Origin: Bacteriovoracaceae bacterium
Lineage (GTDB): Bacteria > Bdellovibrionota > Bacteriovoracia > Bacteriovoracales > Bacteriovoracaceae
DNA: 64,000 bases
NCBI GenBank assembly: GCA_020630335.1
Contig: JAHDBN010000003.1
Location: 1 to 64,000 of the forward strand
Direction of reading: 5' to 3'
The translations under genes were made by a program, and so were the position numbers. The notes beneath the pieces are model-generated. The model had not been told where the DNA came from. It saw only the letters and a program-made list of their open reading frames with translations, and made no database searches. Shown here piece by piece: positions 41,386-44,685 of the stretch (position 1 is its first letter; every line of letters starts with the position of its first letter).

Positions 41386-42165
41386 ATGTTTATATTCAAT
41401 GGGCATTTTTCCAACTCTGTTCCGAGTATTCCTTACAATCGAGGAATGAAGTTTGGTGAAACGGTGTTTACTAGTTTTTTACTGAGAAACGGAAAAGTCA
41501 TTGGGCTTGAAAGTCATAAGAATCGATTAAAGAAATCACTAAAACTTCTTTACCCAGAATTAGAAATTCCTTCTAATACTTTTGAGTTTTTAAAAAAATT
41601 ACCTCAAATAGGAGTTTATAAAGTTCGAGTGAATTTTTTTGCAGATTTATATAAAAATTTGGTTCTATCATTAGTGGAGTTAGCAGAACTCGAGAATCAT
41701 TTTTTTAATAAAAATGAAAATTTAAAAGTTATTACTAAAATTCATCATTTAGAAACAAATCTCAATTTATCAAAATTAAAGTATACAAATTATGCTCTTA
41801 CAAATCTTATGAGTGAAAACAATAATGACGTTTTAAAAATGAATGAAAAGAAGGAAGTATTTGAACTAAGCACTAGTAATATTTTATTTTTAAAGAATGA
41901 GAAATTCATCTTGCCTAAAGGGAATTATCTAAAAGGAATAGGCCTTGATTATTTTATAGAGTTTGTTGGTTCAGATCATGTTCACGAAAGAAGAGTTCAA
42001 TATTCAGAGATAAAAGAAATGAATGGGGCTTTAAGTTTAAACGCTGTACGCTTTCTTAGAGAGATTTTGTCTATTGATAATATTGATATGAAGAACAACA
42101 ATCTTTTTTCTTTAAGAGAAAAGTTTAAAGATTTTTTGATAAAAAAAGAGAAGAATATATGTTAG
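41386..42165 (+). CDS. class IV aminotransferase (PabC/BCAT-like)
   Basis: The start at 41386 (MFIFNGHFSNS) fits the family N terminus; an in-frame ATG at 41359 adds nine residues and lies only 2 bases after a TATACT box, so it may precede the transcription start. Key parts are PYNRGMKFGETVFTSF, the PLP Lys in LSKLKYTNYAL and ELSTSNILFL with Glu. It may be aminodeoxychorismate lyase or a D-amino-acid/branched-chain aminotransferase; the sequence does not decide. It overlaps the next gene by 7 bases. Confidence 0.75.
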   Translation: MFIFNGHFSNSVPSIPYNRGMKFGETVFTSFLLRNGKVIGLESHKNRLKKSLKLLYPELEIPSNTFEFLKKLPQIGVYKVRVNFFADLYKNLVLSLVELAELENHFFNKNENLKVITKIHHLETNLNLSKLKYTNYALTNLMSENNNDVLKMNEKKEVFELSTSNILFLKNEKFILPKGNYLKGIGLDYFIEFVGSDHVHERRVQYSEIKEMNGALSLNAVRFLREILSIDNIDMKNNNLFSLREKFKDFLIKKEKNIC

Positions 42166-42953
42166 AGAAAATTGAATCCGTACTATTAGAAGCTTCAGAT
42201 CTTATTTTAAGATACCAAAAAGAAATTAGTAGTTTAGATGTTCAAGAAAAAAAGGGAGAAGGTGTTTTATCAGAAGCGGATCTCGCAAGTGAGAAAATTT
42301 TAAAAGAAGGTGTTCTGAAAATTTTTCCCACGCACGATATTTTAAGTGAAGAAGATTTTTTCTTTTCAAAAAAAAATATGGAAGATATTAACAAAGAGAA
42401 TCTTTGGTTAATTGATCCAATTGATGGAACTAATAATTATCTTGCAGGTTTTCATCACTATTCTATTTCAGTAGCTTATATGAAGAATGGAGAAGTGGAG
42501 TTTGGCGCAGTTATGAAGCCTTCAACACAAAGAATTTATTATGCTCATAAAGCAAAGGGAGCTTTTATAAAGGATCCTAACCAAGTTCCTAAAAAAATAA
42601 CCGGCCCAGATATTTCTAAGAAAGAAAATTCTTTGAGTTTAATTACTTGTCTTTCTCGCTTGAGTAAATACCCATCTAAAATGGATCAATTTGTTAAGGC
42701 AAATAAAAGGTGTCGATCGGTAAGAAGGTTAGGAAGTGCTGCTCTTGATTTATGTCTAGTTGCTGAGGGGATATTTGATGGTTTTTGGGAGAGTGAGTTA
42801 AAGCCTTGGGATATTGCAGCAGGAGGGTTAATTTGTCAGGAAGCTGGATTAAATGTGCATAATTTTAATCAAAGAGGCTTTGATGTCTTCTCTTATGGAA
42901 TTATTGCTAGAAGAGAACAAGATTTTGATTTGTTTCAGTCAATTATAAACTAA
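42159..42953 (+). CDS. inositol monophosphatase family phosphatase
   Basis: The 264-aa protein has both metal-site motifs: LSEEDFFF and LIDPIDGTNNYLAGFHHYS (D-P-I-D-G-T), and the C-terminal ELKPWDIAAGGLICQEAG. Members include SuhB (inositol phosphates) and CysQ (3'-phosphoadenosine phosphates). Ordinary length and intact residues indicate an active Mg-dependent phosphatase, substrate unassigned. It is coupled to the aminotransferase by overlap. Confidence 0.85.
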   Translation: MLEKIESVLLEASDLILRYQKEISSLDVQEKKGEGVLSEADLASEKILKEGVLKIFPTHDILSEEDFFFSKKNMEDINKENLWLIDPIDGTNNYLAGFHHYSISVAYMKNGEVEFGAVMKPSTQRIYYAHKAKGAFIKDPNQVPKKITGPDISKKENSLSLITCLSRLSKYPSKMDQFVKANKRCRSVRRLGSAALDLCLVAEGIFDGFWESELKPWDIAAGGLICQEAGLNVHNFNQRGFDVFSYGIIARREQDFDLFQSIIN

Positions 42954-43046
42954 AAATTTGCCCCTATAAAAAAGTTTCCTCCTCCTTGCTTGCGCACTGC
43001 AGAATATTTAGAATAATAGGACTAATGATTATCTCAGGAGGAGTTT

Positions 43047-44036
43047 ATCAAAGATCTAATTCAATTCATTTCAACACATAATATTGATCTGCTAATTATA
43101 TTTGGAAGTGTTTCTATACTTATGTTTATGACATTTTTACTTACAAGGTCTTTTTTAGATAAAAAGATGAGTAGTTTAAAAAATTATAATCAAAAGGTTG
43201 GAGATCACATTAATTCTATTATTAATAAGTCTAGTGAGTTCAAGGCCTTAGTCGATGTAGATATAGAGAAATATGCTAAAATGGGACAGGCAAATGAAGA
43301 AACCATCTCTAAGCTTCAAGAGAGTGTAGGGAGAAAAGATGAAAAGTTAGTATATCTTGAAAAATCTAATAAAGTTTTAAAAGAAGAAACAGAAGCTTTA
43401 GAAAAAAAGTTATCAAGCTCTAAGCTTGACGAAAAAACTCTGGCGCAAGTAGAGGAGCTAACGAAAAAAAATGAAAAGCTTTCTAAGCAAATGAAAGATT
43501 TAGAGCTTAGTCATAAAAAAGAAATGCAAGCCTTGAAAAAAGCACCTGTAATGGATCAGTCTGATAAGCAAGTTCTTAAACTTAAAGAAGATTTGAAAAT
43601 AGCAAAACAAGAAAGTAATACACTCAAGCAAAAAATGGAAAATTCTCTTAAAAATGCAGATAAAAGCTTAGTTAAAGAAAACAAAAGCTTGAGAAGTGAA
43701 ATTGAAAAACTTCAAATGGAAAATAAAAGTTTAATCCAAATTCAAGAACAACAAGAACTTGAAACAGTAGCAATGATGAAACAAGAATCAATGATTGCTG
43801 AAGTAAAGCAATTACATCCAGAAAAAGAAGAAAAAACTTCTAAAGGGTTTGGTTTTTTCAAATTTTTAGATTCAAAAGTATTGGATTCAAAGTTAGCAAA
43901 AAATCTGGAGCAAATTGATCAGGTTGCTCAAAAAGAAACTCTGACTGAAGATAATATTGTCAAGCTAGAGAAAGTAGATGAAGATATAAACAAGGATGAA
44001 CTTGTTGATGTTTTCAAAAAGACGATGGCTTCTTAG
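43047..44036 (+). CDS. membrane-anchored coiled-coil protein with apparent AUC start
   Basis: A near-perfect AGGAGG (43036-43041) stands 5 bases before an ATC at 43047 in a frame that has stops at 43023 and 43026. The first ATG in frame (43122) falls in the middle of the only membrane helix (LLIIFGSVSILMFMTFLLT), so it would destroy the anchor. I therefore place the start at the ATC, or an ATT shortly after. The ~329-aa product is one N-terminal helix plus a long Lys/Glu coiled coil and a short acidic end. No family is recognised. It overlaps the HEAT-repeat gene. Confidence 0.65.
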   Translation: MKDLIQFISTHNIDLLIIFGSVSILMFMTFLLTRSFLDKKMSSLKNYNQKVGDHINSIINKSSEFKALVDVDIEKYAKMGQANEETISKLQESVGRKDEKLVYLEKSNKVLKEETEALEKKLSSSKLDEKTLAQVEELTKKNEKLSKQMKDLELSHKKEMQALKKAPVMDQSDKQVLKLKEDLKIAKQESNTLKQKMENSLKNADKSLVKENKSLRSEIEKLQMENKSLIQIQEQQELETVAMMKQESMIAEVKQLHPEKEEKTSKGFGFFKFLDSKVLDSKLAKNLEQIDQVAQKETLTEDNIVKLEKVDEDINKDELVDVFKKTMAS

Positions 44037-44685
44037 TAGCTTATTATTTTTATCGTTTTCTGTTTTTGCTGAAAGTAAAGTAGAAAAAAACTATTCTAAA
44101 TTAAAAAATATCTTATTAAAAGAATCATTATCTGGAGAGCAGAGAGAAAAAATTCAGAATGCTTTGTTCAAGTTAGATAATAAGTCTGTTCCTATGCTCA
44201 TTGAAGTAATGAAATCAGCGAAATTCCCTGATCAAAGTAGATGGATGGCCACGATGAGCTTAGCTCGTATTATGGGAAAAAAGTCTCTTCCTTTTATTTC
44301 AAAATTTTTACGTCATCCTAGCTGGATGATGAGACTTAGTTCTTTAAAAATTATTAGAATGTTTAAAGATAAAAATTATATTTCTTCAGTAGAGAAACTT
44401 CTTTTTGATAAATCGCTTCTAGTCAGGGCTGAAGCATTAGAAATAGTGCATTCGCTTGGAGCAAAGGCTTCAGCTAAAAGTGTTTGGAAAATGCTTTATG
44501 ACAAGAAAAACTATATAAAGTTTTCTAAATCAGAAGTGCAGCATACAGATATTGTTGAAAAAATTTTAAAAACGGTAGTAGATCTAGATTATAAAAAAGT
44601 AAAACCTCTTTTAAATAAGATGGCTTCAGAGAAGAAGTTTGCTAAAATGAAAAAACAGCTAGAATTAACTATTGATAATTTATAA
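43996..44685 (+). CDS. exported HEAT-repeat protein
   Basis: The 229-aa protein opens with MNLLMFSKRRWLLSS; an ATG at 44008 gives a cleaner signal peptide (MFSKRRWLLSSLLFLSFSVFA). The rest is a set of HEAT-like helices (DNKSVPMLIEVMKSAKFPD; WMATMSLARIMGKKSLPFI; PSWMMRLSSLKIIRMFKDK; LLVRAEALEIVHSLGAKAS). Such repeats are protein-binding scaffolds. It overlaps the upstream coiled-coil gene by 41 bases, so the two probably act together at the envelope. Confidence 0.7.
   Translation: MNLLMFSKRRWLLSSLLFLSFSVFAESKVEKNYSKLKNILLKESLSGEQREKIQNALFKLDNKSVPMLIEVMKSAKFPDQSRWMATMSLARIMGKKSLPFISKFLRHPSWMMRLSSLKIIRMFKDKNYISSVEKLLFDKSLLVRAEALEIVHSLGAKASAKSVWKMLYDKKNYIKFSKSEVQHTDIVEKILKTVVDLDYKKVKPLLNKMASEKKFAKMKKQLELTIDNL

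Follow-up and report, generated by a model that had tools for sequence, protein, structure and literature searches.

A putative AUC start codon at a membrane coiled-coil gene of a Bacteriovoracaceae bacterium

Where does translation of a long gene begin when its reading frame offers no ordinary start codon near its Shine-Dalgarno site? The question arises at a coiled-coil gene of a Bacteriovoracaceae bacterium (GCA_020630335.1, a MAG; contig JAHDBN010000003.1), of which positions 1 to 64,000 of the forward strand were analysed and are referred to here as the window. The open reading frame (43029-44036) is preceded by the stop TGA at 43026-43028 and closed by TAG at 44034-44036; its first in-frame ATG lies 31 codons past the upstream stop, with ATG, GTG and TTG absent in between. 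The original prediction that this interval holds no normal start codon was thus borne out by reading the frame, and the coordinates that it gave for an AGGAGG, a gap of five bases and an in-frame ATC proved exact (Table 1). Sequence comparison leaves hardly any doubt that the gene is started by AUC, a very weak codon, and not by AUG.

Table 1. Features at and around the coiled-coil gene (window coordinates)
Feature	Position	Strand	Remarks
Upstream neighbour, inositol-monophosphatase family	42159-42953	+	PF00459, E 1.4e-51
Promoter-like pair TTGCTT (42986-42991), 17 nt, TAGAAT (43009-43014)	42986-43014	+	Predicted 5' leader ~26 nt
Shine-Dalgarno AGGAGG	43036-43041	+	5 bases (AGTTT) before the start; present in four of four congeners
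Putative start codon ATC (AUC)	43047-43049	+	ATC in three of four congeners, GTG in the fourth
Coiled-coil gene, 329 codons	43047-44036	+	Predicted N-terminal membrane helix, cytoplasmic coiled coil, conserved C-terminal tail
Membrane helix, most hydrophobic 19 residues	43089-43145	+	Kyte-Doolittle 2.39 from ATC, 0.51 from ATG 43122
First in-frame ATG	43122-43124	+	Rejected as main start
Downstream HEAT-repeat gene	43996-44685	+	PF13646; overlaps the coiled-coil gene end by 41 or 29 nt

The start region within the genus

Of 59 genomes, a protein search matched four: that of the window and three more of its genus (G001, G002 and G003). The aligned start regions read AGGAGG-AGTTT-ATC in the window, AGGAGG-GAGTT-ATC in G002, AGGAGG-ACCAT-ATC in G003 and AGGAGG-CTTC-GTG in G001; in the three ATC genomes the spacer letters differ, and the Shine-Dalgarno sequence, the spacing and the ATC are constant. 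This ortholog comparison, which the original prediction of an AUC start preceded by a near-perfect Shine-Dalgarno had called for, agrees with it: none of the four congeners carries ATG at this codon and ATC is kept across species of the genus, G002 and G003 being closely related to each other, apparently from one study and therefore not fully independent. Outside the genus ATC is not kept. The position fixed by the Shine-Dalgarno and the orthologs thus holds no ATG, GTG or TTG in the three ATC genomes. In a tree of the phosphatase, G000 groups with G001 and G002 with G003 (support 89/73), and the coiled-coil tree places G000 outside the other three with support 87/47; the trees fit a single origin of ATC followed by reversion to GTG in G001 as well as two separate origins.

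The pairing energy of the Shine-Dalgarno at 43036-43041 is -10.3 kcal/mol; at the first ordinary starts of the 63 ORFs of the window, a single gene pairs more strongly (-12.2); in the three ATC genomes the values are -10.3, -10.7 and -11.8 kcal/mol, a strong compensating Shine-Dalgarno in each. The motif itself is no rarity: AGGAGGN4-7ATC occurs three times in the window versus 1.48 expected, a count reached by 17 of 100 shuffles, and AGGAGGN4-6ATC occurs at 35 genome sites versus 31 for the reversed pattern. Motif significance by itself was accordingly rejected as support. Since the string alone is at chance level, the argument relies on the orthologs and on a combined frame test: a locus was available for 30 of the 35 AGGAGGN4-6ATC sites, and of these the one at 43047 alone opens a long frame, of 329 codons, that lacks ordinary starts both before it and over the following 24 codons. 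The gap of 31 codons from the stop to the first ordinary start is exceeded by one other of the 63 window ORFs, a 214-codon frame at 25-666 of the + strand in which 50 codons precede any ordinary start; this frame may use an unusual start too, or may not be a real gene.

By its substitution pattern, the stretch between the ATC and position 43122 is evolving as coding sequence. Between G002 and G003 it differs by 2, 1 and 8 changes at codon positions 1, 2 and 3 (dN 0.063, dS 0.897); in wider pairs the changes are mostly at third positions, dS being large or saturated there and the ratio not useful. The stretch encodes most of the membrane helix, which is followed by positive residues (RSFLDKK). 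According to the positive-inside rule, this suggests that the N-terminus is short and lies outside, with the coiled coil in the cytoplasm. We read the product as a single-helix membrane protein, for which an inner-membrane scaffold or tether would be the likeliest role. Searches of Pfam with seven orthologs and of NCBIfam with four returned no model above the curated cut-off, and only coiled-coil-type or chance matches below it. The protein is widespread in Bdellovibrionota-type relatives.

Start codons across the family and competing readings

A profile built from eight proteins found the coiled-coil gene in 119 of 129 family genomes (an order-level search returned the same 129 genomes). Start regions were read at all 119 loci, where starts were called by the best Shine-Dalgarno pairing and then corrected by hand. 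The automatic table gave GTG 88, TTG 19 and ATG 11 for the 118 loci with an ordinary candidate, the window being the one without; corrections changed G002 and G003 to ATC, G145 to ATG, G075 to GTC/ATA and G025 to ambiguous, while G138, truncated by its contig end, and G140, whose start could not be recovered, were left out. The 117 scorable starts, which are not phylogenetically independent, are GTG in 88 cases, TTG in 16, ATG in 8, ATC in 3, GTC/ATA in 1 and ambiguous in 1; by genus, 38 of 45 are neither ATG nor ambiguous, six are ATG and one is ambiguous. As controls, the neighbouring genes at 31 long loci were scored in the same way: ATG 25, TTG 2 and GTG 1 for the downstream HEAT gene (n=28), and ATG 24 and TTG 7 for the upstream phosphatase (n=31), for which the simple first start gave ATG in 18 of 31.

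Across the phylum, 219 of 290 genomes matched the profile, the family included. At 20 loci of other families, picked among the better matches and read from candidate lists (a phosphatase frame was flagged nearby in 13 of them), the start was ATG in 15 (one ambiguous with GTG), GTG in four and TTG in one. A phylum-wide avoidance of AUG was rejected on these readings; since other families mostly use ATG, the avoidance is confined to part of the phylum. Together with the ATC of the congeners, the avoidance of AUG in the family suggests selection for low output of the coiled-coil protein, and the series of starts points to a dosage of this uncharacterised envelope protein that matters.

The ordinary start may have been lost a second time. 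In G075, which belongs to another genus, AAGGAAGGAGTAG is followed by GTC ATA GAC, with no ordinary start near the Shine-Dalgarno; the frame is intact (312 codons) and the HEAT gene lies behind it. GTC or ATA is the probable start of this ortholog. The protein tree places G075 among other genera, apart from the window's genus and on a long branch, so that the loss looks independent. On the reverse strand of its locus (L193), at about base 1491, no ordinary start is seen behind AAGGAAGGAG.

The AUC could be a real start whose weakness is neutral drift, tolerated by the strong Shine-Dalgarno and regulating nothing. Such drift would account for the variation of the codon among relatives (GTG, TTG, ATG, ATC and GTC/ATA) and for the GTG of G001. 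However, AUG would then be expected often, yet it is found in just 8 of the 117 starts, and prokaryotic selection is reported to favour AUG in general (abstract of PMC5622118). We regard drift as possible but doubtful, and the retention of a weak AUC for low output as the better account.

The remaining alternatives place the start elsewhere or deny the codon. An AUU at 43059, which had been offered as a second choice besides the AUC, has one point left in its favour: in G002 and G003 this codon, codon 5, is an in-frame ATG, and for this reason the ATC might not be the sole start in those two genomes. The AUU itself lies 17 bases from the Shine-Dalgarno, though, and G001 has GTA there and its GTG at the ATC position; a start at 43059 thus seems quite improbable. 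It is very unlikely that translation begins at ATG 43122 (or 43128), which would turn the upstream stretch into an untranslated leader and the product into a soluble protein. This ATG is the first ordinary start, and Met is retained at both places in four of four congeners; however, coding constraint acts on the stretch ahead of it, the AGGAGG is 80 bases away, orthologs of other genera start at GTG or TTG behind a Shine-Dalgarno, and the helix would be lost, in line with the predicted damage to the membrane anchor (Table 1).

The suggestion that 43049 carries a G-to-C change or sequencing error, the real codon being ATG, draws on the MAG assembly and on the single base that separates ATC from ATG; it did not hold up, since the same C occurs in two other, separately assembled species and ATG in none of the congeners, which makes a sequencing error or recent damage extremely unlikely. 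Just as remote is a frameshift joining an 18-codon ORF, which begins out of frame at ATG 43025 just upstream and overlaps the start region, to the main frame: in the other three congeners, the 60 bases that precede the start contain no ATG.

Proposed initiation at the AUC codon and known weak starts

An AUC start at 43047 could function in the following manner: The perfect, well-spaced Shine-Dalgarno, by virtue of which the codon would be usable, recruits the small ribosomal subunit, and the initiator tRNA may pair with the first two bases of the AUC. IF3 would disfavour the mismatch at the third base, so that initiation is allowed and inefficient. The weak codon may be kept to hold the membrane coiled-coil protein low, and its synthesis would respond to IF3 as that of infC does. 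As a whole, a true AUC start that is enabled by its Shine-Dalgarno, inefficient, kept for low output and responsive to IF3 is the likely explanation, with the limit that the congeners are few (four) and that G001 has GTG.

The classic gene under IF3 control is infC, with an AUU, AUC or AUA start and autoregulation by IF3. It is present in four of four congeners (locus L034 in the window's own genome), apparently with an ATT start behind GGAGG; the lineage evidently uses an AUN start at this gene. Thirty infC loci were fetched (L018-L047), of which 23, the four congeners among them, were parsed by motif and seven were not read; in most of the 23 the gene apparently starts with ATT or ATC. The coiled-coil gene likewise has an AUN start behind a strong Shine-Dalgarno, whereas it does not encode a translation factor and its control by IF3 is conjectural. 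To our knowledge, few conserved non-canonical start codons are known outside infC.

Published work on weak starts leads us to infer inefficient, IF3-sensitive initiation at AUC 43047: low output of the protein is deduced from measurements on other genes, and IF3 sensitivity is probable. In an in-vitro survey, weak third-base pairs were excluded by IF3 (excerpt of PMC10158994). As far as the excerpted source goes, non-canonical starts are repressed by IF3, and the infC gene of Streptomyces has an ATC start of its own (PMC5472188). In the same source, Streptomyces sigR resembles the present case in its conserved weak start, its AGGAGG-type site and its place as the first of two closely linked genes; it differs in that the codon is GTC and not ATC, the product is a regulator protein and repression by IF3 was experimentally demonstrated. 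The conserved non-canonical starts of cvfC1 (AUU) and ccpN (AUA) in S. aureus lie behind extended, strong Shine-Dalgarno sites as well, but codons and genes are different and, in poor medium, these starts were measured to yield roughly 10% of the AUG output (PMC13009471, in part). Listeria has a fixed ATT on infC and a fixed ATC on rnhC (PMC13068326, in part); in the latter, the same codon is kept on a conserved gene, but the gene is another one and its start was experimentally confirmed. While conserved non-canonical starts are thus already known (infC, sigR, ccpN and rnhC), the AUC start at the coiled-coil gene appears to be new, and no report of it was found in the open-licence PMC literature.

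A broader proposal, which we consider rather unlikely, is that the coiled-coil gene and infC form a small IF3-controlled set in the genus, that the AUC sets the output of a two-protein envelope unit and that the ordinary start was lost at least twice in the family (AUC here, GUC/AUA in G075), the far end of a long-lasting selection against AUG. The AUC would set the output of both proteins because the HEAT gene overlaps the coiled-coil end by 29-41 nt in four of four congeners. If the set were real, a fall in IF3 activity would raise the products of both the coiled-coil gene and infC.

Non-canonical starts escape gene finders that accept ATG, GTG and TTG alone, and at this locus most of the membrane anchor would be lost under that rule. 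Selection on start strength could be studied at this single gene, for which the family provides a natural series of codons (ATG, GTG, TTG, ATC and GTC/ATA).

Neighbouring genes and the leader

Of 33 long loci, 32 have the phosphatase upstream of the coiled-coil gene, and in four loci fully read outside the genus the gene is found between the inositol-phosphatase and HEAT-repeat genes. In four of four congeners the HEAT frame overlaps the coiled-coil gene end (43996-44036) out of frame; its ATGs lie 41 and 29 nt inside this end in three genomes of the genus, and in G001, where the contig ends soon after, the 41-nt ATG was seen by eye. Such an overlap was not seen in the other genera examined: the HEAT ATG, where found, lies 2 to 40 nt after the stop, with extra upstream ATGs in G072 and G073. 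The genus-specific overlap makes translational coupling from the coiled-coil gene to the HEAT gene possible in the window's genus.

By consensus count, a promoter-like pair spaced by 17 nt (8-9 of 12 matches) ranks best or joint-best in every one of the four congeners, and its position corresponds among them; a short leader is therefore probable. A stricter promoter scan did not list the pair at 42986-43014 on the + strand. Sequestration of the Shine-Dalgarno in a read-through transcript by an upstream TCCTCC (about 42979-42986) was rejected, folding energies being ordinary: the z values are 0.58, 1.35, 0.49 and 1.49 for long pieces and 0.24, 1.01, -0.31 and 0.62 for short ones, and only the window and G003 show the two elements paired in their minimum-energy folds. 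The start region thus has no unusual fold. An Rfam search gave one chance match (E 0.69). Just upstream of the -35-like box, at 42963-42981 of the window, lies CCTATAAAAA-N2-TTTCCTC, which is conserved in the congeners and occurs without mismatch once in the genome.
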